A stretch of DNA of 43,723 nt. Source: Thalassotalea sp. 42_200_T64. Its GTDB lineage: Bacteria; Pseudomonadota; Gammaproteobacteria; Enterobacterales; Alteromonadaceae. The first letter of the stretch is position 1. Each line of letters starts with the position of its first letter. This document shows positions 5,342-40,551 of this stretch, in pieces. Both the position numbers and the translations under genes were made by a program. The notes beneath the pieces are model-generated. The model searched no databases. It was not told the origin of the DNA and was given only the letters and a program-made list of their open reading frames with translations. The stretch covers positions 1 through 43,723 of the forward strand of contig MABC01000084.1 of NCBI GenBank assembly GCA_002162925.1. Reading direction: 5' to 3'.

Positions 5342-6499
5342 GTGGATAAACAGCAACACATTGATGAACACTTTATGCAAAGAGCTATTGCTCTGGCAAA
5401 AAAGGGTGAATACACCACGTCACCTAACCCTGCCGTGGGCTGCGTATTGGTAAAAGATAATATCGTGATTGGTGAAGGCTGGCATCAAAAAGCAGGCGAA
5501 GGTCATGCCGAAGTTAATGCCTTAAAAGCCGCAGGTAGCGCCGCTAAAGACGCAACCGCCTATGTGACTTTAGAGCCCTGTAGTCACTTTGGTCGTACAC
5601 CACCCTGCGCCAAAGGATTAATTGAGGCGGGCGTAAGCCACGTGGTTATTGGCATGCAAGACCCAAACCCTTTGGTTTCTGGTCGTGGTATCAAAATGTT
5701 GGAAGATGCCGGTATCAGTACTAAGGTGGCAGTGCTTGAACAAGCTGCGAAAGCGTTAAACCCTGGTTTTATCAAACGCATGCAAACCGGTATGCCATTA
5801 GTTCGTTGCAAAATGGCGGCAAGCCTTGATGGTAAAACGGCAATGAGTAACGGTGAAAGTAAATGGATCACCGGTAGCGAGGCTCGTCAGGACGTACAAA
5901 GGTTTCGCGCCAAGAGTTGCGCGATAATTAGCGGTGCCGATACGGTGATCACCGATAATGCCAATTTAAATGTGCGTTATCACGAGTTGGGATTCGCCGC
6001 AAATGACATTGAAGAGCAACAAGTTAGGCAACCAGTACGTGTGATCATTGACACGCAAAACCGGCTAACACCAGAGTTGGCGTTATTCAATCAAACTACA
6101 TCGATAATTTTAGTTCGCACAGCCCTTGAAAATATCCATGAGTGGCCGCATTTTGTAAAACAGCTAGTCGTTAAAGAAAGTAACGTTGCTGAAACTAAGG
6201 GCAAGGCCGATTTAACCGAATTGGTAAAACAGCTTGCCGATATGGGCTTTAACAACTTGTGGTTAGAAAGTGGTGCACGCCTGGCGGGTGCATTTCTTCA
6301 ATCAGGATTAGTTGATGAACTGATATTGTATCAAGCACCTAAACTAATGGGTGAAAATGCCTTGGGTTTATTTGATATCAAATCATTAAACCATTTAGTC
6401 GATGCCATCGCACTTGAAATTCAAGATGTACGTATGATCGGTAAAGACATACGTATTATCAGTAACGTTGAAAACACAAATAAAATACAAAGGCACTAA
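5342..6499 (+). CDS. ribD: Bifunctional riboflavin biosynthesis deaminase/reductase RibD
   Basis: RibD performs the second and third steps of riboflavin synthesis after GTP cyclohydrolase II: deamination of the diaminopyrimidine and NADPH-dependent reduction of the ribose chain. The 385-residue protein has the zinc deaminase motif HAEVNAL (His55, Glu57) with PCSHFGRTPPC (Cys80, Cys89), then a reductase domain from about residue 150 (RCKMAASLDGKTA). The start is GTG at 5342, supported by AGGA at 5331-5334 seven bases upstream; the next in-frame ATG (5375) lies inside the conserved fold. The gene is 4 bp ahead of ribE, so the two are co-transcribed. Confidence 0.96.
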   Translation: MDKQQHIDEHFMQRAIALAKKGEYTTSPNPAVGCVLVKDNIVIGEGWHQKAGEGHAEVNALKAAGSAAKDATAYVTLEPCSHFGRTPPCAKGLIEAGVSHVVIGMQDPNPLVSGRGIKMLEDAGISTKVAVLEQAAKALNPGFIKRMQTGMPLVRCKMAASLDGKTAMSNGESKWITGSEARQDVQRFRAKSCAIISGADTVITDNANLNVRYHELGFAANDIEEQQVRQPVRVIIDTQNRLTPELALFNQTTSIILVRTALENIHEWPHFVKQLVVKESNVAETKGKADLTELVKQLADMGFNNLWLESGARLAGAFLQSGLVDELILYQAPKLMGENALGLFDIKSLNHLVDAIALEIQDVRMIGKDIRIISNVENTNKIQRH

Positions 6500-6503
6500 G
6501 TAA

Positions 6504-7169
6504 ATGTTTACCGGAATTATTGAAGCAGTAGGCAAAGTAAAATCGATCAAACTGAACGCGTCAGGTGCTCGAGTTATGATCGCCAGTGGCAACTTAGATC
6601 TCAGTGATGTTAAGTTGGGCGACTCTATCGCTACCAACGGCATCTGTTTAACGGTTGTAGATATAGATGGCGCAAGTTACAGCGCCGACGTTTCAAAAGA
6701 AACGTTAACCCGTACTGGATTTACCCATTATTCATCTGGCACCAGGGTAAACCTTGAAAAAGCCATGCTACCCACCACTCGTTTTGGTGGTCATATGATC
6801 AGTGGTCATGTTGATGGTATTGGGAAAATAACAGCAATAAACCCTGTGGGTAATTCGATTGAATATTGGATCGAATTAGCCGATAACCTAAAGCAATATG
6901 TGGCAGAGAAAGGTTCTATTACCGTAGATGGCACGTCACTTACGGTGAACAGTGTTGATGAAAACAAGTTTCGTTTAACCATAGTGCCACACACCACAGA
7001 ACAAACTATTATTAGTACATACAAAGTAGGGCAGTTGGTTAATTTAGAAGTCGATTTAATTGCTCGTTATATAGAAAGGTTATTATTTTGTCGCGAACAG
7101 GACAGCAATCAAGCTACCAGTTCCGGTATAAGTAAAGAGTTGTTATTAAATAGCGGTTTTATCAAATAA
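6504..7169 (+). CDS. ribE: Riboflavin synthase, alpha subunit
   Basis: This enzyme dismutates two molecules of 6,7-dimethyl-8-ribityllumazine to riboflavin. The 221-residue protein shows the two tandem lumazine-binding barrels: the first begins [12 protein letters not shown] and the second [15 protein letters not shown] near residue 93. Its C-terminal tail after the second barrel is a little extended ([10 protein letters not shown]...). The start lies 4 bp after the ribD stop. It is the middle gene of the riboflavin cluster, 13 bp before ribBA. Confidence 0.96.
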
Positions 7170-19708: not shown

Positions 19709-21469
19709 TTAAGCAAATACCAGCACAGTTAACGTCCATAAGATTGCGGCAAGGAAGGCCGCCAAAGAGGCCGGGACTATTTGTGACTTCACATGATCCA
19801 TTAAATCACAACCTGTGGTCATCGCACTGAGTATGGTAGTGTCAGAAATTGGCGAGCATTGATCGCCATAAACGCTGCCATTAAGCACGGTGGCAAAACA
19901 CACCGCCATAAATAGCTCTGGGTTCGCCAACCCTTGCGATTGACAGATTGCCCAGGCTAAGGGCATGGCAAGTGGAAAGGCGATTGCGTATGTGCCCCAG
20001 CTGGTGCCGGTAGAAAAGGCAATCACCATAGTCATCAATTGTAAAATAACCGGCAATAACCAAAACGGCAGTTGCTCACCCAATTGCGAAACCAAAAACA
20101 GTCCGCCACCTATCTCTTTACTGATATTGCCAATGATCACTGCTAGCATCAAAATTACCGAGGCGACAACAACCCCTTTTAAGCCGGTGCCAAAGCCATC
20201 GACAACATTGGTAAGCGACATGCCTTTGCCTAAAGCGATAAAAATTGACAATAAAAGGGCGCCGCCAAAGGCCCAGTTTACCTGCGGCGAGCCGTAAGCG
20301 ATAAATGTGATTACTGCAATGGCAATTAGGCTGAGCAGAGGGATGAAAAACTCCAGCACATGTGGCTGGTAGCCCTCAGGCACATGACAGTGCTGTAATT
20401 CTTTGGCACTTAGCGGTGTTGCGTTAGCGCCATCCAACTCACCCGTTGTTGCGGCTCGCTGATGCGCCGCTCTAATTCTTTTTCCGGAAAATTTAGTGAT
20501 GTTCAGGCTTAATAACAAGGTGCCGATCACCGCGAGTATGCCGTAAAAACTGAACGGTATACTGCTAAAAAAGAATTTTAAACGATCAGTTTCCGTCGCT
20601 AGAAAAGCCACTCCAGGGACAAATATTAACGCTTGGATATAGGCGGGCCAGGCATTTAGGGCTATCACTGAGGCAATGGGAGACGCAGTAGAGTCGACAA
20701 TGTAACTCATTTCTTCATGACTGACTCCCGCTTTATCTGCCAGCGGCCTTACCGTAGTGCCAACCAGAACCGTACTCATGGTACCGCCTTGAAAAAATAA
20801 AATACCCAGCAGCCAGGTTACCATTTTGGCCGATCTTGGGCCTCTGACAAAGTGCCGGGTCATGTAATCGGCAAACGCCTGTGCGGCTCCTGTTTTTGTC
20901 CAAACCCCCAATAAGCCGCCCAATAACCATAAATACAGCAATAAAATGGCCGCGGTTCCTTCTTTGGCAAGATTTGGAATTATCACATTATCGGTAAGGT
21001 TGTACTCTCCCAACATAACCGCGCCCACCACTACGCCGCTAAACAAGGCGGTAATCGGTTCGCGGGTTAACAAACACAAGGCAATAGTGATAAACGCCGG
21101 CAATAATGACCAAAGGCTAAAATGAAACGCCGGCTTTAGCAGAGTTAATTGTTGGTTATCGTCAACCACCCACTGCTGCTTTAGTTCGGGCGGTGGTTGT
21201 CGGTTGTTTAAATTTTCCTGGCTCAGTAACGATTGCTCGTAAGGTACGCTGTTAGTGATAACAATTTCCTGACCTTTATATTTATAAGCTGGCAGACCTG
21301 AGGCGGAGGTGTATATGTTGTAAATATAAGATTGTTCTACCCAGGTTTTGCTGACATTTTTATCGATGTAAAGGGCGCAACAAAGACCGACTGCAAAAAT
21401 GAACAGGGCAACATGATTGTGACGTTCCGTGATTAATTTCATTGCATTTTTCCATTGGAATTGCATCAT
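19709..21469 (-). CDS. NhaC-family Na+/H+ antiporter
   Basis: The 586-residue membrane protein has about a dozen hydrophobic segments. Family features include [62 protein letters not shown], and the C-terminal [24 protein letters not shown]. These belong to the NhaC/IT superfamily that exchanges sodium for protons or amino-acid-linked ions. A periplasmic loop of about 80 residues follows the first segment. The start could also be the internal Met10 (AATGCAATGAAATT, with GGA upstream). It lies next to the C45/nitrilase pair but 193 bp separates them. Confidence 0.9.
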
Positions 21470-21662
21470 TTAGCCGTTCAATTAAGTCGCTAAATGCTGT
21501 GGATATTCGTTGAGATAATATCTATCTATACAGCAAAAATGCAGAAAAGAGAACGCTTAATTAATCGGCTTGAAGTCGAAGTGATGTAGGTTAATGCAGT
21601 TATCCTATCGACGTTAGATTAGGCTACCACATCGACTTTATACCAAGTCGGTAGAATTGGCA

Positions 21663-22655
21663 TTAAAGGTATGCTGGTGAACTGACGCTAATATCGCCTT
21701 CAATAAAGTGTTCAAAACTTTGTCGCAAAATTTGACCATCGGGCCAGTGTAATTCTACCACGCCCAGTAATGGCTGATAGCGAGCCGTGTATAACGTTCC
21801 CCAGCCATGCCAGTCGCTGGACTTTCTTAACAATGGCGGTTGCAGAAATAAATTAACCAAGGAGTTTTTTGCTTCCCTGGGGTCGGCGATGCGAGCGGAC
21901 AAATACTGCGCCCGAATGTAGCTATCGGCAATGGCGTCAATGTTTTCGATGGCGCTGCCGTCTTGATGGTTGGTAGCAAAGGCAAGGGAGTTAACCTGAA
22001 CTTTTTCGCCAGGGCAAATGACAACGGTTTTGTTGTCGCCTTGTCTATCGACTACGGTGACGTTATACGGCATATGAATAGGTACATGGGTTAACACTTC
22101 AACGGCTTCAACGGTGGTGCGACAGAACTCTAAAATGTAGCGCAGCACAATAGTAATGGCAAAACCGTCACCATGCGCCTGAAGGCCACCGTAGGCCAGC
22201 GAAACCGCTAAGCCATGCTCATTCATGCCATCAATGACTCCCCACAAACAATCGGTCATTGCAATTACCCGGGTGCCATTCCAATGGGTATGCAGCAATA
22301 AGCGATCACATAATTGTGATGGGAAATCATAATTGCGCACCAGTTCAATACCGTAATTTGTTTTGCAGGCTTGTGAACAACCAGAGCGAAAAACAGGTGG
22401 TTTATATAAACATAAAAATGCACAGGTTTGCTCATTGGCACCAAAGGCATGGCATAAACCATCGTAGGTGGTGAGCAACTTGGGCATATATTGCTGTATT
22501 TTTTCTCGACCTTCTTGAGCACTAACACGTTCTGGGGCTCGGCTTAACCAGCGATGATAAGCTGGCCAGGTTTGGGCGTAGGTTACAGCCAGATTTTCAC
22601 CGAGAAAGTGTTCTTGTTGTGAAGAAAACCCCAGTGTGGGGATTTGTTCGATCAT
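21663..22655 (-). CDS. C45-family autoproteolytic acyltransferase/amidohydrolase
   Basis: The 330-residue protein fits the Ntn-hydrolase family typified by acyl-CoA:6-aminopenicillanic acid acyltransferase. A precursor of this type is cut before a Cys that becomes the N-terminal nucleophile: here FRSG-Cys93-SQACKT, followed by a typical YGIELVRNYDFP strand and the GVIDGMNEHGLAVSLAYGG segment. The substrate is an amide or acyl-amine, identity unknown. Its ATG overlaps the stop of the upstream nitrilase-family gene by four bases (ATGA), indicating translational coupling and a shared pathway. Confidence 0.8.
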   Translation of the reverse strand: MIEQIPTLGFSSQQEHFLGENLAVTYAQTWPAYHRWLSRAPERVSAQEGREKIQQYMPKLLTTYDGLCHAFGANEQTCAFLCLYKPPVFRSGCSQACKTNYGIELVRNYDFPSQLCDRLLLHTHWNGTRVIAMTDCLWGVIDGMNEHGLAVSLAYGGLQAHGDGFAITIVLRYILEFCRTTVEAVEVLTHVPIHMPYNVTVVDRQGDNKTVVICPGEKVQVNSLAFATNHQDGSAIENIDAIADSYIRAQYLSARIADPREAKNSLVNLFLQPPLLRKSSDWHGWGTLYTARYQPLLGVVELHWPDGQILRQSFEHFIEGDISVSSPAYL

Positions 22656-23866
22656 GACTTTATGTATTGTTTAAACTGCGCCGAGGCTTCTTTAAGCCAT
22701 TTAAGGTTGCCGTTTCCTGACTCTGAAACTGTACTATTTTTATCGCTCTCCATCTTCACACTCTCAGTCACTTTTGTCATTGCCGATAAATCAAGGGTTT
22801 TCTTGGCGGCTGTGGTTAAGTTCAGCTGAGTTTGTTGCTCAATTGCTGCAGATGGGATTTCAGTAGCATGATCTATGGCCAAATTGCCATATTCAGCAGC
22901 ATCCGGATAGGTGCCTAGTTCACCTATCTCGTGATGAATAAGTGGTTCTGCGACATCTGTGTTAGCCACATCATTGTTAACCGTTAAGCCCGGCACGGTT
23001 GCCATCCTGGCTTTGCTTTCTCGTGTCGGTTTTTGCAAGGGGCCCAAGCTATCAAGGTAGCTATTTTGTCGCTGTTCTTTGTTGTAAACGGTAAAGTTAA
23101 TTTTGCTGTCGCGAAAACTTTTTAGCGGTTGGCCAAGGTTACGCAAACCCACTTCTCGTTGGCGGCGAACCATATCGAAATCAAGTTCGGTAACCAAAAA
23201 CTCATCGGTGGTACCTGCTTGATGTATCACTCGGCCAGAAGGGTCTACGAAACAAGACTGACCGACACCGCCAACACCTAAACCATTGATATCAATGATG
23301 TAGCTTTGAAAAATAGCGCCGCTACTGCGGGCCAGATTTAATTCAATCTCGCGGTCATTGGTGCCGGTTAATATCGGATGTAAAATGACTTCGGCCCCCA
23401 TCGAGGTCAGGGTTCGAAGCACTTCCGGAAACCACATGTCATAACAAATGCACAAGCCAAATCGACCAGCGCCGGGCACGTCAAACACCACGAATTCGTC
23501 TCCGGCTTCTACCCCTTCTTCAAAAGGACAAAATGGGAATAGCTTTCTATGTCGGGCAATCACTTGCCCTTGGGGATTGATCACGGGTGTGGTATTAAAA
23601 ACTGCGTTATTTCGTTGTTCAAAAAAAGAGCCGGGAATTAACCAGATGTTGTGTTTTTGTGCCATCGCACAAAAACGATCTTCAGTGTGCCCTGGCATGG
23701 GTTCGGCATAACTGTGTAAAGGACCATGAGCGGCCAGTTCACTGATAATTACCATTTCTACCCAAGGGTATAAGCTCATCAGTACATTAATCTTGTCTTC
23801 AATCGCGTCTACATTGCTACCATGCTGCAAATTCATTTGTATGCCAGCTATACCAAATGGCGTCAT
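22652..23866 (-). CDS. Carbon-nitrogen hydrolase (nitrilase superfamily) with a long C-terminal tail
   Basis: The first 260-270 residues form the amidase fold with the complete Glu-Lys-Cys triad: Glu43 (ISELAAHG), Lys108 (HRKLFPF) and Cys141 (CICYDMWFPE). Relatives include N-carbamoylputrescine amidase and aliphatic amidases, which cut small amides. The remaining approximately 130 residues (after SLGPLQKPT) are polar, low in hydrophobics and probably disordered, ending in a short amphipathic helix LKWLKEASAQFKQYIKS. It is upstream partner of the C45 gene (ATGA overlap) and diverges from the decarboxylase/ATP-grasp pair. Confidence 0.85.
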   Translation of the reverse strand: MTPFGIAGIQMNLQHGSNVDAIEDKINVLMSLYPWVEMVIISELAAHGPLHSYAEPMPGHTEDRFCAMAQKHNIWLIPGSFFEQRNNAVFNTTPVINPQGQVIARHRKLFPFCPFEEGVEAGDEFVVFDVPGAGRFGLCICYDMWFPEVLRTLTSMGAEVILHPILTGTNDREIELNLARSSGAIFQSYIIDINGLGVGGVGQSCFVDPSGRVIHQAGTTDEFLVTELDFDMVRRQREVGLRNLGQPLKSFRDSKINFTVYNKEQRQNSYLDSLGPLQKPTRESKARMATVPGLTVNNDVANTDVAEPLIHHEIGELGTYPDAAEYGNLAIDHATEIPSAAIEQQTQLNLTTAAKKTLDLSAMTKVTESVKMESDKNSTVSESGNGNLKWLKEASAQFKQYIKS

Positions 23867-24554
23867 AATTAGTGTGTCTTGATTTATTGATTATTATGTG
23901 GAAAGCCTTTGACTTCATCATAGCCTAACTTTGTGTGGGAAGTGTGCTGGCTATTAGCAAAAGCAATATTTTTGTTCTGCATCAAAATTTATCAAACTTT
24001 GTTGATAATTTGAAACACCTAGGTATAGCTTTTTATCACTTGTACATAACATAAAGTTAATCATAAGTGCTGCCCAAGGCTGGTTAGTGACCAGATTCGG
24101 CTGTATTTTAAGCGCTTATCCACAGTATCAGTATTGCGTTGCAACAACCTGTAACAGCTCACACTCAGTATTGAAATAAGTAAAAAACACAATTAATTCA
24201 ACTGGGTATAGGTTAAGTCTAGTTTATCTCCATACATTGGCTAGCGGCTTGCGATTAGCTTTAGCTGCTCCTGTAATTACCAACAAATATTTATTAACGC
24301 CACTATCGGTAGTCAAATTCAGCCACTGACATTCTATAACTCTAGGTTATTAAATCCCCAAGAATCGGAATGCTGAAAATGCTGTGCTTACATTTTTTCT
24401 AGGTATATTAAGACTTTAGATTTAATGATTTCGCTTATAAATAATTCTCTTATCTGCTGGTGGGTAAATCCGCTGAAATGCAAATGACGGATCATTTATA
24501 TAGGGCTATTGGTAAACCTTGATTTTTATATGAACGAATATTGGAAAACTACAT
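23867..24554. promoter_or_regulatory. Long divergent intergenic region
   Basis: These 688 bp between two divergent operons hold no convincing gene. Visible elements are a small inverted repeat CTGGT-TAGTG-ACCAG at 24080-24094 and a single TTATCCACA string (24116-24124) matching a DnaA box. Promoters for both operons must lie here, but I cannot assign them with confidence. Its length is unusual for a promoter region alone. Confidence 0.45.
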
Positions 24555-27434
24555 ATGAGTAACGTTGAAAATAAAAAAACTCAGGAAATGATCGGGTTTT
24601 ACCATCAGCTTAATAATAAGCGGCAAGATACCTGGGTAAAATTAAAAAAGTATACCTTCCACCTTTCAACCAGCAGTCGCAGCAGTAAAGGCCATAATCG
24701 GTTAAAGAAAGCGCTCGAACTTTCATTAACTTCACTGGAAAGTATTGAGGATTATACCGCATTTCCTTCGAAAGAAGACTTTCGTTATTTGTGGATCCAA
24801 TTTGAACAGAAAGATTATGTTGGTTTGACCCATTCGGTCGCACAAATTCATTATTTTTTAGAAAATGGTACTTATCGGCGCAAAGACGTTGATTTATCAC
24901 TTTCAACCACGGAGTCAAAAGCCAATTTAGAAGCGGATGATGACAATCCACATAGTATTCAAGGAGCGAACAAATCCCGCTAAAGACCATATTTTGAAGT
25001 GTTGATCGTCGATGATTTACTCATTGATGCGGAAAACCAATTGCTCAACGCGATGCGAACTATGCGTCATCGCGATGATCAGTTCACCTACAACACCATC
25101 GTTGTGCCTACTTTTGAAGATGCCATTATCGCGGTGTTAATTAACCCTAATATTCAAGCGTGTATCTTACGACCCAGCTTTCCGATGAAATCGAAACGCA
25201 ATAGTGGTCTTATCACTCATGTGGTGGCGGCAATCGACGAAAAATTGCGTAAATATGTTTATAACAGTAAAAATCAGGGCAGCGAACTGGGCCGGTTGAT
25301 CAATTATTTACGACCAGAGTTAGATTTATACTTGATCTCGGACATGGCGATGGAAACCGGCAACCAAGATGATGACGATTATTTCAAACGGGTATTTTAT
25401 AGTGAAAATTCCAACTTAGATATGCACCACAGTCTTTTGGGTGGGGTTGCCGAACGTTTTGATACGCCATTCTTTTCTGCTCTAAAAAAATACAGCCGTA
25501 AACCTACCGGTATTTTTCATGCGTTGCCAATTTCTCGAGCAAAATCGATAGAAAAGTCAAACTGGATTGGCGATATGCTCGACTTTTACGGGGCGAATAT
25601 ATTTCTTGCTGAAACCTCCACCACATCCGGTGGTTTAGATTCTTTACTGCAACCTAAAGGGCCACTGAAAAAAGCTCAGGAGTATGCCTCCAGAGCTTAT
25701 GGTTCGCGCAGCTCTTATTTTGTCACCAATGGCACATCAACCGCGAATAAAATAGTCGTACAAGCGTTAGTTCAGCCTGGTGATATTATTTTGGTCGACC
25801 GAGATTGTCATAAATCACATCACTACGGCATGGTGCTATCTGGCGCGCATGTAAAGTATTTGGACTCTTATCCGATACATGATCTTTCCATTTATGGCGG
25901 TGTGCCATTGAAAGAGATAAAACGTAACTTATTAAAATACAAAGAGATGGGCCAGCTTGATCGAGTTAAAATGTTGCTGCTAACCAATTGTACTTTTGAT
26001 GGCGTGGTATAACGTACGTCGGGTTATGGAAGAATGTTTGGCGATAAAACCTGATCTGGTGTTTTTATGGGATGAAGCCTGGTTTGCGTTTGCCAGCTTT
26101 AACCCGATTTATCGAACGCGTACGGCAATGTTTTCCGCCGCATCGTTAACCAGACGGTTTAAACGCACTAAATATCGTAAAAAATATGAAGCTTATCAGC
26201 AACAACTTGCCCAGGTAGCAGCAAACGAGCAAAGCGCCTGGATGTTGGAAAATAAGCTGATCCCCAATCCCGATGTGGCAAGGATTCGTACCTATACCAC
26301 GCAATCAACTCACAAAACATTAACCTCGTTACGGCAAGGTTCGATGATCCACATTTTTGACCAGGATTTTCGTCGAAAAGTCGAAAGCACGTTTAACGAA
26401 GCGTATATGACACATACGTCGACCTCGCCCAATTATCAAATTTTGGCATCCTTAGATATTGGCCGCCGACAAGCCGAACTTGAAGGCTACGAAATGGTCA
26501 ACAAGCAGCTTGCATTGTCGATGACCCTGCGTCAATCGGCGTATCAGAGCGACCGCTTAAAAAAATACTTTGATGTGTTAGTCAATAAAGACCTGGTTCC
26601 GGCAGAATTTCGCGAGTCAGGGGTTGAACCTACTTTAACGTTGACACCGGGTTTAGCCAAATGGAAGAAGCCTGGGCCAATGATGAGTTTGTCGTCGATC
26701 CAAGCCGGATCACCGTACATATTGGTAAAACCGGGATAGATGGTAATACCTTCAAAGATAAATATTTGATGGACAAATATGGCATCCAAATTAATAAAAC
26801 CTCGTGAAATACCATTCTTTTCATGGTCAATATTGGTACCTCACGTAGCTCGATCATGTATCTATTAAATTGCTTATACAAAACCGTCAATGAATTAGAA
26901 ATACGTGATGAAGAAATGAGCCCGGCTGAGCGGGCGATCCATCAAAAACGGGTAATTTCATTAACCAAAGAGTTACCCCCGTTACCAGACTTTAGTTGCT
27001 TTCATAGTGCGTTTCGTCCGGGCAAAGCCCTAGGCACAGGCGAAGGCGATATTCGTAAAGCCTATTTCTTATCTTATGATTGTGAAAATTATGAATACAT
27101 AAACTTAGATAGCGGTGAACTTGAGCGGGAAATGCAAGCAGGAAGAGAGCTTGTTTCAAGTACCTTCATCATTCCTTATCCGCCAGGCTTCCCTATTTTG
27201 GTGCCTGGACAAGTGATTAGCCAGGAAATCTTGGAATACATGTAAGCACTCGATGTGAAAGAAATTCATGGTTGTAACCCTGAACTTGGTTTAAGTGTTT
27301 TTACTGAACAAGCATTAAACCGACTTGAACAAAAAGTGACACCCGAATTGGCAGCAATCAGGCCGATTAATGACACCAAAAAAGCTGTCGCAACAGCAAC
27401 TAAACGAAAACAAAAAGTACCCGCAATCAAGTAA
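24555..27434 (+). pseudogene. Orn/Lys/Arg-type PLP decarboxylase, disrupted at five places
   Basis: Pieced together, the gene encodes about 960 residues: a Lys-rich N-terminal extension, a receiver-like wing (RPYFEVLIVDDLLID), the PLP fold (SYFVTNGTSTANKIV, VDRDCHKSHHYG, LWDEAWFAF) with the cofactor lysine in STHKTL (codon 26314-26316), and a C-terminal domain ending near PAIK. Lesions are: in-frame TAA at 24981; a 2-bp loss near 26007 in a TA-rich string, where VVYNVRR is expected; a 1-bp loss near 26629 (PYFNVDTGF expected); TGA at 26805 (in KTS-stop-NTILF); and TAA at 27243 (EYM-stop-ALDVKEIHG). Such enzymes decarboxylate basic amino acids to polyamines. The reading continues homologous after each lesion, so decay is recent or the sequence has errors. 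An intact ATP-grasp gene follows. Confidence 0.85.
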
Positions 27435-27484
27435 GAGGTTGTTACTTTATTGCTAACAAACCCACTAGTGCGTAGCTAAGTGGA

Positions 27485-27514
27485 AAAAGCAAAAGCAAAA
27501 GCAAAAGCAAAAGC
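27485..27514 (+). repeat. Hexanucleotide microsatellite (AAAAGC)5
   Basis: Five perfect tandem copies of AAAAGC lie 43 bp upstream of the ATP-grasp start codon and 50 bp after the end of the decarboxylase remnant. Being in the leader of the downstream gene, copy-number change could alter spacing or message structure; in frame it would read Lys-Ala repeats. Confidence 0.9.
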
Positions 27515-27557
27515 ATCATCATTACAACACTAATCAGACCCAAAAGAGAACACAGCT

Positions 27558-29003
27558 ATGAAAAAACTCAATGGTTTAACGGAAATATACAAATTCTTTC
27601 GGACCTACAAAAAACCGATATATTTTGTTTCAGCATCGCCTTTTAATATTTTAGGATTAGGCCAATTAGTGCCTTCGCTGACCTATGTTAACTATTTTGA
27701 TTGTTTTGATGGAGTTCATCACCGGGTATTTACCCCAAAAGATCGTGGCGCGCCAGAATTCACCTGTTTAGAGGATGTGGTTAACTACCTGTTAGCACAT
27801 AACGAAGCCAAAGACTATATGGCCAAACAAGGCCGTGGTGGTCATATGATGGCGGTAATGTTTGATCAAAAAACAGAACAGCTTGCCAAAAGCATGGGCA
27901 TTAATGTGGCGATGCCTTCGTACGAATTGCGTAACCATTTAGACTCGAAAATTGTCACCACACAAATGGCCAATGAAGCCGGAGTGGCCAGTGTGCCGAA
28001 TGTGTTGGGGGAAGCCGAAAGCTATGAGCAGTTAATGGACTTGGCCAAATCGGGCAAGTTAGGTAAAGATTTGGTGGTGCAAACACCGTACGGTGATTCG
28101 GGAAAAACCACGTTTTTTATCGCCTCGAAAAAAGATTGGCTGCTATATGATAAATTAATCATTGGCCAAGAAATTAAAGTGATGAAACGCATTGCCCCTC
28201 GTTGCGGTACCGTAGAAGCGGTTGCGACCAAGCATGGCACCATAGTAGGACCTATTTTAACTGAGCTTGTTGGTCATAAAGAGCTGACGCCATTTAAAGG
28301 TGGCTGGAGTGGTAATGAAGGTTTTGTTAATGTGCTTGATGACAAAGCACGTACCAAATTAGAACGTATGGTGAAAAAATTTGGTGATCGTCTGTATCAA
28401 GAAGGCTATAAAGGTACCTTCTGTATTGATTATTTGATCGATAAAAAAGATGGCCGCATGTATCTGGGCGAATTAAACCCGCGTATTAGTGGCGCATCGC
28501 CGATCACCAATTTACTGACGCAAAAATATGGTGGCGTGCCATTATTGATGTTCCATTTACTCGAACATATGGGCATTGATTATGACATCAATATTCGCGA
28601 GATCCAAAAACGCTGGCGTGATTTTGATACCTGGTCTCAGGTGGTTTTCAAACATACCGGCGACGATGTCCGATTACTCAAGCAAGTGCCACGTTCTGGC
28701 ATTTGGCGAACCACCGACAACAATGATGTTGAACTGGTGCGCCGTACTGCCGACTGGAGTAATGTATCCGGCATGAATGAAGCGTTCTTCCTGCGTATCT
28801 TAGGGCCGGGAGAGTATATCTATAAAGGCGCAGATATGGGGGTGTTGCTGGTACGTGGGCATTTGCAAACCAAAAATGACAAACTCACGCCTCGGGCCAA
28901 AAACTGGGTTGCGGCGATGAAATCGCAATTTCAATCGGCCAGTCTCGAGACTGAAATTCACCCAAGTTTGTCCGATACTGACATTCACGGTAAGGTTTTT
29001 TAA
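27558..29003 (+). CDS. ATP-grasp ligase (biotin-carboxylase-like)
   Basis: The 481-residue protein has an ATP-grasp core: a pre-ATP region, then QTPYGDSGKTTFFI (phosphate-binding loop region), then the metal-binding signature MYLGELNPRISGASPITN typical of the superfamily, and a C-terminal part of about 150 residues. ATP-grasp enzymes join a carboxylate to an amine, thiol or carboxyl donor through an acyl-phosphate. The partner substrate is unknown. AAGAGAA serves as ribosome-binding site. The position directly after a PLP decarboxylase suggests the decarboxylation product, or its precursor, is the amine substrate. It is intact although its upstream partner is broken. Confidence 0.8.
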   Translation: MKKLNGLTEIYKFFRTYKKPIYFVSASPFNILGLGQLVPSLTYVNYFDCFDGVHHRVFTPKDRGAPEFTCLEDVVNYLLAHNEAKDYMAKQGRGGHMMAVMFDQKTEQLAKSMGINVAMPSYELRNHLDSKIVTTQMANEAGVASVPNVLGEAESYEQLMDLAKSGKLGKDLVVQTPYGDSGKTTFFIASKKDWLLYDKLIIGQEIKVMKRIAPRCGTVEAVATKHGTIVGPILTELVGHKELTPFKGGWSGNEGFVNVLDDKARTKLERMVKKFGDRLYQEGYKGTFCIDYLIDKKDGRMYLGELNPRISGASPITNLLTQKYGGVPLLMFHLLEHMGIDYDINIREIQKRWRDFDTWSQVVFKHTGDDVRLLKQVPRSGIWRTTDNNDVELVRRTADWSNVSGMNEAFFLRILGPGEYIYKGADMGVLLVRGHLQTKNDKLTPRAKNWVAAMKSQFQSASLETEIHPSLSDTDIHGKVF

Positions 29004-33009: not shown

Positions 33010-33266
33010 TTGGCATCTCTAGTTTTGTTTTTAAAAAATTGATGCCTTTAAGATAAAGGACTGATAACAGTAACGATATTAATAAGTGTTGAGTCATTAA
33101 TAACTTTTGGTTATGGCTGCCGCTTTAATACAACTCTGGGTTATACCTTTACTATCTAAATGAATTTGTCGTAGATATTTGAGCTAGATATCATTTTTAA
33201 AAATACCAAAGCTATCTAAATGGCAATGCTTTAGATGGATTTCAATTTAAAATGAAGGTGATAATA
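33010..33266. promoter_or_regulatory. Divergent promoter region with repeated CTATCTAAATG
   Basis: CTATCTAAATG occurs at 33152-33162 and 33212-33222, 60 bp apart in the same orientation. A third, inverted relative (GCTTTAGATGG, 33228-33238) creates the hairpin ATCTAAA..TTTAGAT with the second. Such phased repeats between two divergent genes suggest a transcription-factor site. A further TATCTAAATG string is near 40580. Confidence 0.5.
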
Positions 33267-36200
33267 ATGTCTACAGGTGTTTCTCAAGATTTAAACCGTT
33301 ATATCAATAACAATTACAAGGAAGCGAATGTCAGTCAATTTATCGAGTTTTCGCAACAACTGCTGGAATCTTCATTAAATGACGAAATTCAACACCTTGC
33401 AATTGAGCGACGTTTTGATTTGGCATCATCACTTTGGCAGAGTGCTAGCAGTCGTCAGGGCCATGCAAATAAAGTAGAACTGCAAACCATAAGACAAGGT
33501 GATGAAAACGTAACTAGCTTGCATATTATCAGTGATGATCAGCCGTTTATCGTTGATTCGATAACAAACTTGTTACTCGCTGAAGGCTATTTAATAAAAT
33601 TTTGTTTACACCCGGTACTGACTGAAAACAACACATCAACAGCTAAAGAGTTTCAACAAAGTGTTGATGTTTCTGTTATTTATTTCCAATTGGGCAGCCA
33701 ATTAAGTGACAAGGTTGCACAAGCGTTAACCGAAAAAATACTTGCCTTGCTGATTGAAATAAAATCGGTAACCGATGATTGGCCAGCAATGCTTAACAAA
33801 GCAAAAGTACTGGGTGAAGGCCAAAACAATGGCTCAAACATTGAACAATTGCATGACTTTATGCAATGGCTTTGCCAGGATAATTTCACTTTTCTTGGTT
33901 ACTACCCGTTTTCACTTGCGCAAGGAGAGCCGAACAATGCTGACCAAGAAAGTTTAGGGGTTTTTAAGCAAACCGTTGATCCATCCGCCTTGAATAAATC
34001 ATCATTGAAGATGAAAAGTAAAGAATTACAGCACTTCATTGACTCAGAACTCACCCTGTTAATTTCTAAATCGACAATACGGGAAAAAATTCATCGCCAT
34101 GATCATTATGATCAAGTCAGTGTTAAGCAGTACTCTGAACAGGGCGAGGTCATTGCCATTCATCGATTTATTGGTTTATTTACTCAGGCAGCGAATAACC
34201 AAAATCCGATAAAAATCCCTTACCTACAAAGTAAATTAGCCGCAGTTTTGCAGCGTATTAATTACAAAGAAGAAAGCCATAACTATAAAAAGTTTCGTCA
34301 TATTTTAAAGGAGCTGCCAAAAAGAGAAATTTTTGAGAGCAATACGGCCGATCTTTTTACTTTAGCGAAAGGTATTTATAACCTTAACTCGCAAAGTAAA
34401 TGCGGCACTTTTATCCGTGAAAATAATTTTAATCAACAAGTCTCGGCGTTGGTATTTGTCTCTAAAGAGGCTTTTTGTACCGATTTACGTGATGAAATAG
34501 AAAGCGAGTTGTGCCAATTTTATGACGGTGAAATTTTATCTCGTTGCTCAATGCTCAATGACAATTATCTGGCGCAATGGCATTTTACTTTGGTAAAAGG
34601 TGAGCCACCTTCGAATCATCCAAACCTTGATTCGCTGATTGCCCGCATTGAAGAAAAAACCCAAAGCTGGATGGAAAGCCTGAGTACATTAATTTGTGAC
34701 CGTTGGGGCGATACTCAAGGCACAACGTTAATACAAAAATACCGCAATAGTTTTTCAAAAAGTTATCGTGAAAAATTCTCGGTGTTATCTGCGCTTAAAG
34801 ATATTGAACATTTTGAAAAACTTAACTCGGACAGTAAATATCAATTTCAAATTTACCGCAACGAGCAAGACCAGAACAACTTGTTGCGGTTAAACATTTA
34901 TTCATTGGGAGCAGGTATCGCCTTGAGCGACTCCATTCCAATATTGGAAAAGCTGGGGTTTCGTCCTCTGGATGAATTTAGTTTTAAAGTACTGGCGGAT
35001 ATTAGCTCTGCCAATGATTTGTATAGCTATACCCTTGAGTGTCCTGCCGGTAAAGATCTCGATTTGAAGCAAGTAAAAGCAAAGCTTGAACAAGCGTTGA
35101 CCGATATCTGGGCGCAGAAAATCGAAAATGACGGTTACAATAAATTATTATTAACCGCCAATATCAATATCAGACAAACGGTTATTATCCGTGCTTATGG
35201 CAAATATTTGCGTCAGCTTGGTTTGGGGTATTCTGAGGAGTATTTTCAACAGGCGTTGATCGCCTACCCAGACATCGTTGCCGATTTAATTGCGCTATTT
35301 GAGCAGCGCTTTTCCATAAATGGCAGCTCCATGGCCAAACGCATGCAAGTGGCGAGTGATATATCGAAAGCCTTGTTTGTTAAGTTAAATCATGTGGCTA
35401 AAATCGATCACGACCGTATTTTGCGTAATTTTATCGACGCCATTTCGGCGACGGTGAGAACCAATTTTTATTAACAATCAAAAACCGGTCAGCAAAAATT
35501 TTATTGTTCATTTAAAATTTTAAGTGGTGAAATTGAAGATGCACCCCAGCCTCGCCCTTACGTTGAAACGTTCGTGTATTCGCCAAGAGTAGAAGGTGTT
35601 CACCTGCGCTATAGCGCGGTTTCCCGTGGTGGGTTGCGTTGGTCTGAGCGACAGGAAGATTTTCGCACTGAGATTTTAGGCTTGGTAAAAGCCCAACAAG
35701 TTAAAAATGTGGTGATAGTGCCGCAAGGCGCGAAAGGTGGCTTTGTACCAAAGCAGCTACCGAGTGATGGCTCTCGTGAGCAAATCACCAATGAAGCGAT
35801 TGAGTGCTATAAAATATTTATATCCGCTTTGCTTGATATCACCGACAACAATACTCAGCAAGGCATAGTAAAACCACAGCAAGTGGTGTGTTTTGATGGT
35901 GATGACAGTTATCTAGTGGTCGCCGCGGATAAAGGTACGGCAACGTTTTCGGACATTGCTAATGAACTTGCCGAGCAATATGGTTTTTGGCTTGGCGATG
36001 CATTTGCCTCAGGGGGTAGCGTTGGCTATGATCATAAAAAAATGGGCATCACCGCAAAGGGGGCCTGGGTGTCTGTACAAAGGCACTTTCGCGAAACGGG
36101 TGTAGATGTTCAGCAGGATGAAATTAGCGCGATTGGTATTGGCGACATGTCTGGCGATGTGTTTGGCAATGGCATGCTGTCATCGAAGACCATTAAACTG

Positions 36201-38015
36201 GTGGCGGCGTTTGATCATCGCGACATTTTTATCGATCCCGAGCCCGATCCTGCAATAAGTTATCAAGAGCGGCAACGGTTGTATGACTTACCGCGTTCAT
36301 CGTGGGTAGATTATAACTGCGAGTTGATGTCGGCCGGTGGTGGTGTATTTAGTCGTAGTCTTAAAACCATACCGCTATCAGCACAAATTAAGCAGTTGTT
36401 GAATATTAGCGACAACGTGGCAACGTTATCGCCCAATCAACTGATAGAATATATTCTTAAGGCGAAAGTCGATTTACTCTGGTTTGGCGGTATTGGTACC
36501 TACGTAAAAGCGGCGGCGGAAAATAATAATGACGTTGGCGATAAAGGCAACGATGCACTGCGAGTTAATTCGGCACAGTTACAATGTAAAGTGATAGGCG
36601 AGGGCGGTAACTTAGGGTGTACGCAATTGGCACGAATTGAATTTGCCAAAGCCGGTGGTAGAGTGAATACCGATGCGGTGGATAATTCTGCTGGGGTAAA
36701 TTGTTCTGATAATGAAGTGAACATCAAAATATTGCTTAATCGCTTGCTCAGTGAAGGAAAAATGAGCCAGGTTGAGCGTGATTCATTATTGGCAGAGATG
36801 ACCGAAGACGTTAGCAAGATGGTGTTACTGAACAACTATTATCAAGTGCAAGCGCTGAGTTTGGATGAAGCCAATTCCCATAGCCATTTTGACAGTTTCA
36901 CCCGCTTAACCCATTACCTTGTCGATAATGTGCAACTAAATCGTGAACTCGAATACCTGCCCGATGAAGATGAATTACAAGGGCGTAGCCTGATCAAAAA
37001 GGGGCTTACTCGACCTGAACTCGCGGTATTAATGGCGTATTCAAAAATGGATGTGAATAATGACTTACTGGAACAACAAAGCTTGCTTGATGACGCTTAC
37101 TTTGAAAAGTACTTATTGGCGGCGTTTCCATCATTACTGCAGCAGAAATACTCAGGGTTTATTGTTGAACATCCATTAGCGAAGCAAATTATCGCGACCG
37201 CGGTTGCCAATGAAATTTTCAATCGCGGTGGCATTCATGCGGTGCGCGAGCAAACGGGCGCAACCACCGCCGAGATAGTAAAAGCGTTTATCGTCACTAA
37301 AGAAGTGTTTCATCTGGATAGCATTTGGCAGGAAATTGAATCTTTAGAAGGCATGGTTTCGGCTGAAATTCAAATTAAGATGATGGTTGAAGTGCAACGT
37401 TTTTATCGCTTAATGGCGATTTGGTTCATCAACAATGATGATGCTGATCTGAGTATCGATACCATAGTTGAAAAATATGCCCCCGGTATTGGCATGTTGC
37501 AGCAACTGAGCGATGACGAAATCACTTTGCCGTTTACCCCGGTGGCTAAATCTCTATATCAATTGCAAGCGGGAGAGCACAGTCGTGGCATTGTTGATAA
37601 AATTCATCAATTGAAAGTCACCAGCGTGGTATTTTGTGACATAGTTAAAACTGCGGAAGAATTAAATCAATCGGTTGAACTGGTATTACAGAGTTATCAA
37701 AAAGTCAGTAAAACCATTGGCATTTCCTGGTTGATTGAACAAACCGAACAGGTGGAAACGTCGGATCATTGGTCGCGGTTATCACTATTTTCGTTGTTAC
37801 TCGATTTGCTCGAGTTAAGAGAAAAATTAGTGTTGAAAATCAACCATAGCTATAGTCAATTAGCCCCTGATGCCGCCATTGATAAATGGGCAGAGTCAAA
37901 ACGTTCTGACTTGAATCGGGTTGAGCGGGTCATTAGTGATCTTAAAACGACAGGCGCGCTTACTATCGATAAGTTGTATTTTGCCAATAGGCAGATGCGC
38001 ACCTTACTGAGTTAA
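33267..38015 (+). pseudogene. Large NAD-dependent glutamate dehydrogenase (GDH-180 type) interrupted by one in-frame TAA
   Basis: The frame is continuous for about 1,580 codons, the usual length of this enzyme, except for one TAA at 35472-35474 (codon 736) between RTNFY and QSKTGQQKFYCSF; no base shift is needed. The N-terminal half has ACT-like regulatory repeats; the second half holds the catalytic core (VYSPRVEGVHLRYSAVSRGG, GGFVPKQ, DAFASGGSVGYDHKKMGI, GIGDMSGDVFGNG). It oxidises glutamate to 2-oxoglutarate and ammonia. The preferred start is ATG 33267 (MSTGVSQ), because GAAGGTGA at 33254-33261 is the ribosome-binding site; an earlier in-frame ATG (33252) overlaps that site. A CAA-to-TAA change explains the stop. 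Error or translational readthrough are alternatives. Confidence 0.85.
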
Positions 38016-38026
38016 TAGTTGAGTTA

Positions 38027-38070
38027 ACCTGAAAAAGGGATAAGCAGCACTGCTTATCCCTTTTTCAGGT
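38027..38070. terminator. Bidirectional terminator between glutamate dehydrogenase and LysR remnant
   Basis: A perfect 21-bp inverted repeat (38027-38047 and 38050-38070) with a 2-nt centre has A-rich and T-rich tracts inside its arms. It lies 12 bp after the dehydrogenase stop and its last base is the end of the LysR stop codon, so it can terminate both converging messages. Confidence 0.8.
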
Positions 38071-38635
38071 CAGAATACATCGGTTAAATAAGGAATGAAT
38101 TCCTGCACAACTTTTGGCAAGCCTTTGTTTTCCAGATGCAATCCTTTGATAGTAATATTCAACGGCGGATCAAAAGAAGCAATGCAGATATTCTCAGTTA
38201 AATTACTTTCTGCGGTAAATCTATCAACGATACAAATCCCTAAGCCTTGGGCTACTAGGCGGGCGGCAATAAAATAAGTTTGCACCTTAATCGAAGAACG
38301 TGGCGCAATTTTTTCTTCGATTAGCCGCTTCCAGGCAATGTCTCCCAATGGACCGCTGCTGGTGATATCAATAAATTCAAACTCTGCAACATCGCTCAGT
38401 TTTAGGCTATCCGGTCAATGGGGGAATAATTTTTTCGGGTACACTAAGACTAATTCCGAGGTGGTAAAATCTATGGTTTTTACCCCTGGCATTTCTTCGG
38501 GGGAGAATAACACCGCTAAATCACACTTGTGTTCCATCAATGCTTGCTGCACCGAATCATTATGAATGGTGGTGATATTGAATTCGACATTGGGAAATTT
38601 TTTGTGGAAATTGGCCGGTGGCGTTTGTGCCGATA
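38070..38635 (-). pseudogene. LysR-family regulator, 3' remnant
   Basis: Only the effector-binding domain is left: reading from about 38635, LSAQTPPANFHKKFPNVEF, then NDSVQQALMEHKCDLAVLF, LVLVYPKKLFPH, an in-frame TGA at 38415-38417, PDSLKLSDVAEFEFIDITSSG, VAQGLGICIVDRF, and the end at LTDVF. The helix-turn-helix half is missing. The 5' edge meets a TonB-dependent receptor fragment on the opposite strand. In intact loci the LysR gene would be the divergent regulator of that receptor. The junction position is approximate because both fragments read plausibly over about 30 bp. Confidence 0.8.
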
Positions 38636-38639
38636 GCGG

Positions 38640-40551
38640 TAGCTTCCCACGCGATCTTCGCTTTGACCGCGGTACTACGCGTTCATTATCTTCCGATGTT
38701 GATCGTTTAAATTTTTATGGTTACTTCACCCATGAGTTAAGCGATGATTTGGAGTTTTTCTCAGAAGCAATTTATTACAGTGCCACTGCTGAACGTACTC
38801 GTGAGCAAACTCACAACTTAAGTGCTCAGCGTTTCAAAATTTCAGCCGATGCTGCTTATAACCCCTTTGGTGAAGAAGTAATGTTGCGTGCCTACCGTGC
38901 CATAGACACCGGCCCAAGAAATATTGAAGTGGATGATACCAGTTTTCGTATACTAGGTGGTCTTCGTGGCATGTGGGGCGATTGGGATTGGGAATCGGCG
39001 GTATTTTACACCGAAGCAGAAACCAATGATGTTGCCAATCGTATTCAAGCCAGTAAGTTCCAGGCAGCGATCAATAGCACAAATCCAGATACGGCATACA
39101 ATCTCTTTACGGGTGGTGATTTAAATAACTTAAACTCTGGTGATTCTACGTTAAATCCGCAAAGCGTTATCGATCAATTTATGGTCAATGTGTCAAGAGA
39201 TTCAAAAACCAGCCTGGCACAAGTGGACTTTAAAGTGAGTAATGGCGGTATTTTTGAACTTCCTGCTGGTGATGTGGGTATTGCTATGGGGGTTGAGTTT
39301 CGTCATGAAACCTATGAAGATGATCGTGATGACTTGTTAGATGGTTCTAGCCCATTTGTTGATGCGATTACTAGCGTTGAGCTTTCAGGAAGTGACGTAT
39401 TAGGCTCTAGCCCGACTCCGGATTCTAAAGCCGACCGTGATATTATGTCAGTTTATGCGGAATTTTTAGTGCCATTATTAGACGTGGGTGACCAATACGT
39501 TGAACTACAGCTTGCCGCTCGTTATGAAGATTATTCTGATGTTGGTGATGCCTTTAAACCAAAAGTGGCATTGTTCTGGGAAGCGGCACCATGGTTAAGC
39601 TTTAGAGCATCATATTCAGAAGGATTCCGTGCACCTGGTTTGCCACAAGTTAGTGCCGAAGGCGTTCCACGGAGTAATGCCCTTTATGACCCTGTCCTTG
39701 ATGAAACCTATGCGATTGTCGATGTTCGCAGCGGTAATAATGATCTAGACCCAGAAGATGATGTAAACACCTCGTTTGGTATTGTGTTACAACCGGCTGA
39801 AGATTTAACCATTACCTTTGATACCTGGACCATAGAGCAAAAAGAGCTGGTAGGTATTTTACCTGGGGCTTCACATTTGCTGTACGACTCATTATTGCGT
39901 AGCCAAGGCTCAAGTAACGAAGCGGTTATTCGCGACCCTGAAACTGGCGAAGTTATTCTAATTAACAACGATTACAAAAACTTAGGTATTCGTAATATTG
40001 AAGGCTTTGATGTTAGTGTAGTTTACGATTTCGATACATCATTTGGTGACTTTGGCTTTACCTTAAATGCGGCAAAACTGACCAAGTTTGATCAAGAGCC
40101 AGATCCTATTTCGCAAATGTTACTCGATGCGCAAGCTGCCGGCGACCCTTCAGTGCCAGCGGACAGAACCATTGCTGGTGCCGGTGATTTAATCAAAGAA
40201 AATGGTCGTCCAGAATGGCGTGCCCGCGTGGCGCTTGATTGGGATATGAACCAATGGGGTGCAGGTATCAATGCCAATTATGTGAGTGAAGTGATTGACA
40301 CCAGTACAACGGCAACCATTGATGGTGAAGTAGTACAATTGCCGGTTGATAGTTTTACCACGGTTAATTTGTATGGCGAATATCGTTTTGCTGACGATGG
40401 CTTCCTTGATGGCAGCAAAATTCGCTTAACGGTTCGTAATATTGAAGACCAAGATCCATCACTTGCTGATGAATTAGCACATGGTTACTTTGGCGGCCTT
40501 CATTCAAACCGTGGTCGTTACTTTAAATTAAGCTTTAGTAAAGAGTTTTAA
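38640..40551 (+). pseudogene. TonB-dependent receptor, 5'-truncated
   Basis: About 637 residues of a TonB-dependent receptor remain, starting near RDLRFDRGTTRSLSSDVDRL and running through barrel strands (RASYSEGFRAPGLPQ, IRLTVRNIEDQDPS) to the C-terminal FKLSFSKEF with the aromatic last residue needed for barrel assembly. Signal peptide, TonB box, plug domain and first strands are absent; the open frame extends to 38566 only because antisense LysR sequence happens to be open. Full receptors of this kind run to 900-1,000 residues, so roughly a third is lost. It would have taken up a peptide or similar substrate for the peptidases encoded downstream. Confidence 0.85.

Follow-up and report, generated by a model that had tools for sequence, protein, structure and literature searches.

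A broken amino acid decarboxylase gene beside intact ATP-grasp and hydrolase genes in a Thalassotalea genome

Puu-type catabolism of amines employs a ligase, an oxidation step, an aldehyde dehydrogenase, an amide hydrolase and a GABA aminotransferase. The Puu ligase and hydrolase belong to other superfamilies than the enzymes described here. Among amino acid decarboxylases, LdcI/LdcC, AdiA and SpeF (the OKR family) are about 690-760 residues long and have in common with the protein studied here the OKR_DC_1 domain, along with sequence matches to their solved members. An intact relative of our protein has 960 residues and scores at most 223 bits against the NCBIfam models of OKR decarboxylases, whose cut-offs range from 794 to 1310; with scores this far below the cut-offs, substrate assignments are not transferable.

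The best match of the intact relative among solved structures is M. tuberculosis Rv2531c. Its long architecture is the same, and an alignment with an E value of about 1e-243 covers residues 141-928 of the protein from an intact Colwellia relative (locus L109). In its passage on this protein, a 2026 review (PMC12910592) lists Rv2531c as a 'probable amino acid decarboxylase', states that its activity was not clarified, and cites cryo-EM work on its structure (PDB 9n0o). The entries 9n0n and 9n0p carry the same molecule name as 9n0o. Unlike Rv2531c, the gene described here is broken.

The neighboring gene encodes an ATP-grasp protein whose best family match is NF005096 (PRK06524, 'biotin carboxylase'). 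The match spans residues 2-468 and scores 645.1 bits, under the cut-off of 684. The layout in which this gene occurs, together with genes for a decarboxylase, a nitrilase-superfamily protein and a C45 hydrolase, makes a ligase seem more likely than a carboxylase.

In this study, we describe damage to the decarboxylase member of this four-gene set. The pseudogene is of an ordinary kind; what is notable is where it lies, in a widespread gene set one part of which seems to have been lost repeatedly. We found no description of the combination in open-licence PubMed Central, which does not show that it is absent from print. The case serves as a natural experiment: it suggests that a conserved and apparently uncharacterized set can lose its decarboxylase and still retain the ligase and the hydrolases, which limits the possible functions of the set. 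The neighborhood also shows in what genomic surroundings relatives of Rv2531c occur.

Lesions in the decarboxylase gene

The window, i.e., the whole stretch of DNA analyzed (43,723 nucleotides), is an entire contig (C37) of the draft assembly of Thalassotalea sp. 42_200_T64, which comprises 3.62 Mb in 94 contigs and is 87.4% complete. A single decarboxylase gene (Pfam OKR_DC_1) occupies positions 24555-27434 and is broken by three stops in the gene's frame (TAA at 24981, TGA at 26805 and TAA at 27243) and two short deletions. Alignment with the intact genes of three relatives, G011 and G006 from the same genus and G015 from the same family, places the absence of 2 bases near 26007 and of 1 base near 26626. 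The relevant features are as follows.

19709-21469, minus strand: Na+/H+ antiporter family protein (Pfam PF03553), at the left end of a low-divergence block
21663-22655, minus strand: C45 autoproteolytic acyltransferase/hydrolase, intact, 330 aa (NF040521, 144 bits, cut-off 85)
22652-23866, minus strand: nitrilase-superfamily protein (carbon-nitrogen hydrolase), intact, 404 aa (NCBIfam amidase and nitrilase matches, all under their cut-offs)
24555-24983, plus strand: decarboxylase piece 1, an ORF for the N-terminal 142 aa ending at TAA 24981 (no Pfam match)
24984-26012, plus strand: piece 2, the region preceding the PLP domain and the first half of that domain (OKR_DC_1, E 1.9e-42)
25996-26739, plus strand: piece 3, remaining half of the PLP domain, including the motif STHKTL (OKR_DC_1, E 6.7e-22; alignment)
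26628-26807, plus strand: piece 4, back in the original frame and ending at TGA 26805 (alignment to relatives; no Pfam match)
26808-27245, plus strand: piece 5, C-terminal domain ending at TAA 27243 (OKR_DC_1_C, 22.3 bits, cut-off 24.2)
27246-27434, plus strand: piece 6, C-terminal tail to the original stop (alignment to relatives; no Pfam match)
27558-29003, plus strand: ATP-grasp protein, intact, 481 aa, biotin-carboxylase/PurK-like fold, type B (NF005096, 645 bits; tree; structure model)

The pieces remain recognizable. Pieces 2 and 3 score 146 and 78 bits against OKR_DC_1 (cut-off 27), and piece 5 falls short of the curated OKR_DC_1_C cut-off. Piece 1 is 97% and 96% identical to the beginnings of the intact genes in G011 and G006, respectively, piece 2, which ends past the 2-base frame change, is 98% identical to both, and piece 3 follows the relatives as far as the 1-base frame change. 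A first-pass annotation had listed five lesions with their positions, among them two TAA stops and one TGA, and had stated that the PLP-lysine motif STHKTL survives; the lesions are all there, with positions and stop types as listed, and the motif lies in a piece that matches OKR_DC_1. The same annotation placed a lesion-free ATP-grasp gene 123 bp downstream, as is indeed the case (decarboxylase end 27434, ATP-grasp start 27558). The spacer of 123 bases contains a short tandem repeat of AAAAGC at 27480-27515, a form absent from the three aligned relatives.

In G011, G006 and G015, the gene is one open ORF of 960, 960 and 962 aa, respectively, at the same position, and none of the five lesions occurs in these three relatives; against intact orthologues in the same place, the window's gene carries three stops and two deletions. 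More widely, a decarboxylase match was present in 55 of 80 loci from GTDB genomes, each in one frame, some being clipped by contig ends. Stops occur in only four of these matches (L135, L158, L159 and L168), at most 12 residues from the match end, and we do not count them as lesions. The broken gene itself keeps 253 of 254 conserved residues (conserved in at least 95% of 48 family members). The earlier proposal that the decarboxylase was lost recently is thus well supported, by lesions missing from three relatives and by little missense decay.

Substitutions were counted at codons in which two of the three sequences (window, G011, G006) agree and the third does not, with lesion sites excluded and no outgroup polarization. 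Synonymous and nonsynonymous changes in the decarboxylase number 106:15 in the window lineage vs 262:14 in G011 and G006 together (Fisher p = 0.019), and this raised nonsynonymous share indicates that constraint was relaxed only lately. Because the gene is broken before and inside the PLP domain, it could hardly yield a full-length PLP enzyme, as far as can be read from its frames. In our view, the gene is probably a real and recent pseudogene of the ordinary kind, located in a Colwellia-group cluster of a marine gammaproteobacterium.

Genome decay, sequencing error and recoding

To place the damage in the context of the genome, we searched ORFs of G006 against 778 kb sampled from the window's genome; 353 queries gave 113 counted matches (at least 65% identity), and 50 further G006 ORFs that matched only under 65% identity were left out. 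Of these 113 ORFs, 102 were clean and 11 were not. In the reverse comparison, 106 of 111 of the genome's own ORFs were clean in G006, and 45 of 50 G011 ORFs were clean in a smaller sample of the window's genome. Four stops, at residues 5, 5, 23 and 27 of mechanically called G006 ORFs, were dropped as probable start-site effects: three of the ORFs differ solely by one such early stop (residue 5, 23 or 27), right behind which a long open ORF of the window's genome begins. The stricter count also omits a stop 3 residues short of the end of a LysR remnant. After this recount, 8 broken ORFs are left (105/113 clean), and the decarboxylase has the most lesions among them. A G011 ORF with 5 stops in the window's genome and 4 in G006 is probably no gene.

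In the first G011 sampling the overlap was too small for a control (16 ORFs counted out of 304 queries), and syntenic stretches were then compared for contigs C40, C18 and C13; contig C6 was not placed by a probe. Between the two relatives, 70 of 70 G006 ORFs were clean in G011 and 67 of 70 G011 ORFs were clean in G006. The 8 broken ORFs among 113 differ from 0/70 (p = 0.025) but not from 3/70 (p = 0.54). A surplus of broken genes in the window's genome relative to its kin is possible, though not firm.

These figures bear on the idea that the genome is decaying in general, with many genes going at once and the loss of the decarboxylase having no tie to the function of the cluster. Other genes are indeed broken, namely an NAD-dependent glutamate dehydrogenase gene (NAD-GDH, one stop) and the LysR remnant in the window, and, on contig C18, two more genes, both interrupted by two stops and one of them also by a frame change. 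The genome is also smaller, at 3.6 Mb vs 4.8-4.9 Mb in G006 and G011, partly from incompleteness. Yet most matched ORFs are clean, whether 102 or, counting the three start-only differences, 105 of 113 are taken, and two related loci described below (L111 and L112) also have the set with no adjacent decarboxylase, so that the loss recurs in the cluster. We regard general decay as a somewhat unlikely account by itself; it is compatible with a recent pseudogene and may be its background.

A second idea is that the organism has an intact gene and that the draft is wrong at several sites. The first-pass annotation had kept such local errors as its alternative, and part of the evidence agrees with it. 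The assembly is a draft of 94 contigs, and a lone in-frame stop also interrupts NAD-GDH, which can otherwise be aligned end to end at 79-83% identity. The stops in the decarboxylase are, moreover, accompanied by few missense changes: three nonsense changes with no constraint predict about 42-54 missense changes (a ratio of 14-18 to 1), more than were observed (P 0.03-0.13, from small numbers), and this surplus of nonsense over missense counts against the pseudogene reading. The ratio of nonsynonymous to synonymous changes is 0.31 for the window genes and 0.29 for C40, compared with 0.10-0.18 in G011 and G006. This rise may stem from saturation of synonymous changes, since outside the low-divergence block the window's genome is on the whole the longer branch; it could also reflect errors or relaxed selection.

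Against error stands the concentration of the damage. The decarboxylase has 5 lesions vs 7 to 12 in the 112 other matched ORFs, and its neighbors are clean, with zero lesions in the genes 123 bases downstream and 688 bases upstream. Twelve lesions in the other ORFs, the first count, give an expectation of 0.26 for a gene of this size (Poisson P 8e-6 for the 5 seen), and the 7 clearly internal lesions of the stricter count give 0.15 (P 6e-7); both P values assume an even spread over genes, an assumption that pseudogenes break, and both counts leave out two odd rows and plain truncations. Random base error should also add many missense changes, but a single conserved residue out of 254 has changed. 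Since lesions are far fewer in the other matched genes, we favor a local pseudogene over random error and consider misassembly or misreading improbable.

Finally, we reject as extremely improbable that the gene remains functional in a recoded or split form, by readthrough and frameshifting or by separate translation of its pieces: a GTG at 24999 in piece 2, just past the first stop (about residue 143, behind the N-terminal extension), the coincidence of that stop with the start of the match to the solved relative (residue 141) and the apparent constraint on the coding pieces until very recently would agree with it, but five separate recoding events would be required, with one frame change inside the PLP domain, none of the three aligned relatives has any of the lesions and no internal stop was seen in the 55 further decarboxylase matches, and the nonsynonymous share is raised (p = 0.019).

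The gene set in relatives and a tentative pathway

The ATP-grasp gene was used to follow the set through GTDB genomes. Its three best named matches are filed under Colwellia, and the 80 loci considered are the best 80 of 245 with a relative of it; no such relative was found in viral contigs. Nitrilase, decarboxylase, ATP-grasp and C45 genes occur together in 36 of the best 80 loci, in the order nitrilase-decarboxylase-ATP-grasp-C45 in 22, nitrilase-ATP-grasp-C45-decarboxylase in 11 and the window's layout in 3. Within 295 sampled genomes of the family, only four have the ATP-grasp gene (E 1e-60), namely the window's own, G006, G011 and G015, and the same four have the decarboxylase (E 1e-100).

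In a quick ATP-grasp tree with a midpoint root, the 80 loci were joined by the window, G006, G011, G047 and two further type A copies, giving 86 rows. The tree has two sides, which we label 'type A' and 'type B'; ten positions of the protein distinguish the two at 90%, and decarboxylase labels follow the gene content of each locus. Type A has 61 rows, 55 of them with a decarboxylase in the locus; four of the six others start at most 430 bases from a contig end and so give no evidence of absence. Type B has 25 rows, i.e., 19 with no decarboxylase, the window, and five with one (G006, G011, L109, L110 and L113, the last being a contig of G015). At loci L111 and L112 of this side, the nitrilase, C45 and ATP-grasp genes are arranged as in the window. 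Nitrilase and ATP-grasp lie some 440-680 bases apart, and neither a decarboxylase nor a recognizable remnant was found in these loci; a search of the L111 genome found no decarboxylase match, and L112 was checked at the locus only.

Searches of four more type B genomes found a decarboxylase elsewhere in L114, L120 and L124, and none in Amphritea balenae (L115). The L114 gene has no partner gene within the 20 kb read around it. L120 and L124, from the Roseobacter group, combine a type B ATP-grasp/C45 locus with a separate and complete type A nitrilase-decarboxylase-ATP-grasp-C45 operon (L193 and L194). We read this distribution as repeated loss of the decarboxylase in the Colwellia group, with repeated gain as a possible alternative.

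The set may itself have moved between relatives. Within the block from 19.7 to 29.0 kb (19709-29003), synonymous divergence (pS) from G011 is 0.47-0.56, and in the seven genes to its right it is 0.61-0.80; G011 vs G006 has no such step (0.49-0.64 for the block genes and 0.34-0.71 for those to the right). The antiporter is 93% identical to that of G011 and had no match within the G006 stretch compared, and left of the block there was no match in the syntenic stretches compared. Compared with G011 and with G006, the window's genome has an excess of private synonymous changes on C40 and in most of the window's genes that lie beyond the block; inside it there is no excess, except somewhat in ATP-grasp, and outside it NAD-GDH also has none. 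The lower divergence of the block than of its right flank suggests exchange among relatives, probably of the antiporter, C45, nitrilase, decarboxylase and ATP-grasp genes as a unit of about 9 kb.

The partners of the decarboxylase show no break. The nitrilase-superfamily protein keeps 66/66 conserved residues and scores 71.4 bits against the N-carbamoylputrescine amidase model TIGR03381 (cut-off 410); the C45 protein, well above its family cut-off, keeps 48/49. Neither has a rise in nonsynonymous changes (37:5 vs 100:36 for nitrilase, 41:6 vs 106:22 for C45). The ATP-grasp protein belongs to its superfamily by CPSase_L_D2 (22.3 bits, cut-off 19.8), and its model has a mean pLDDT of 86.7. Among the 50 Foldseek matches listed, biotin carboxylases are best, PurK is among the top ones and an L-amino acid ligase ranks 30th; TM scores by query are 0.48-0.60, and with values no higher than 0.60 the reaction cannot be named from structure.

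Whether the ligase is still used, as had also been proposed, is answered in part. In its favor, the ATP-grasp gene has no lesion, keeps all residues conserved in at least 95% of type B proteins except for E104Q, a change present in L111 too, and is retained in relatives with no adjacent decarboxylase. Substitutions lend no support: ATP-grasp has 80:14 in the window lineage vs 109:9 in G011 and G006 (p = 0.12), and the suggested comparison of dN/dS did not separate it from the decarboxylase (106:15 vs 80:14, Fisher p = 0.69). Substitution rates alone do not separate the kept gene from the dropped one, and with patterns so alike the case for continued use rests on the comparison with relatives.

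Recurring neighbors among the best 80 loci, each family named from one representative, include a GABA-type aminotransferase (24), an aldehyde dehydrogenase (20), a MocR/PdxR-like regulator (11), one more family (11), an amidase (8) and an HTH-cupin regulator (8), and they point to amine or amide metabolism. Near some loci a Puu-like logic of ligase, GABA-type aminotransferase, aldehyde dehydrogenase and amide hydrolase can be discerned; unlike in Puu, the aminotransferase and the dehydrogenase accompany only 24/80 and 20/80 of the best loci, and neither was identified in the window.

As a tentative proposal, the four genes would make up an amine-amide pathway that has not been described, with an order of steps suggested by sequence. 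The Rv2531c-like decarboxylase would convert an amino acid, perhaps a basic one, to an amine; the ATP-grasp enzyme would couple this amine to an acid at the expense of ATP, giving an amide; and the C45 and nitrilase hydrolases would cleave such amides to release it. The type B branch would run with no decarboxylase, and the window's lineage would be crossing over. In the assembly, its decarboxylase has three stop mutations and two small deletions and the rest of the block is unbroken; the ligase-hydrolase set would then be fed by an amine from elsewhere, as may hold in relatives that have no decarboxylase.

Other damaged genes

Several further genes show damage. A lone in-frame TAA at 35472 interrupts the NAD-GDH gene (33252-38015), which can be aligned over its full length to its G011 counterpart (1587 aa, 83% identity). 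The LysR-type regulator remnant at 38061-38615 represents only the last 63% of the gene and has an internal stop, and it is abutted by a TonB-dependent receptor ORF (38566-40551) that is 40% identical to its G011 counterpart, only from residue 326 of the latter; a stretch between the LysR and TonB genes, found in G011 and G006, seems to be deleted in the window. At 1699-2891, two neighboring minus-strand ORFs, the upstream one a partial Porin_O_P match and the other with no Pfam match, may be a broken gene. On contig C18 (L197 and L068), comparison with G006 revealed two stops and a frame change at 69381-71968 and two stops at 6302-6994.
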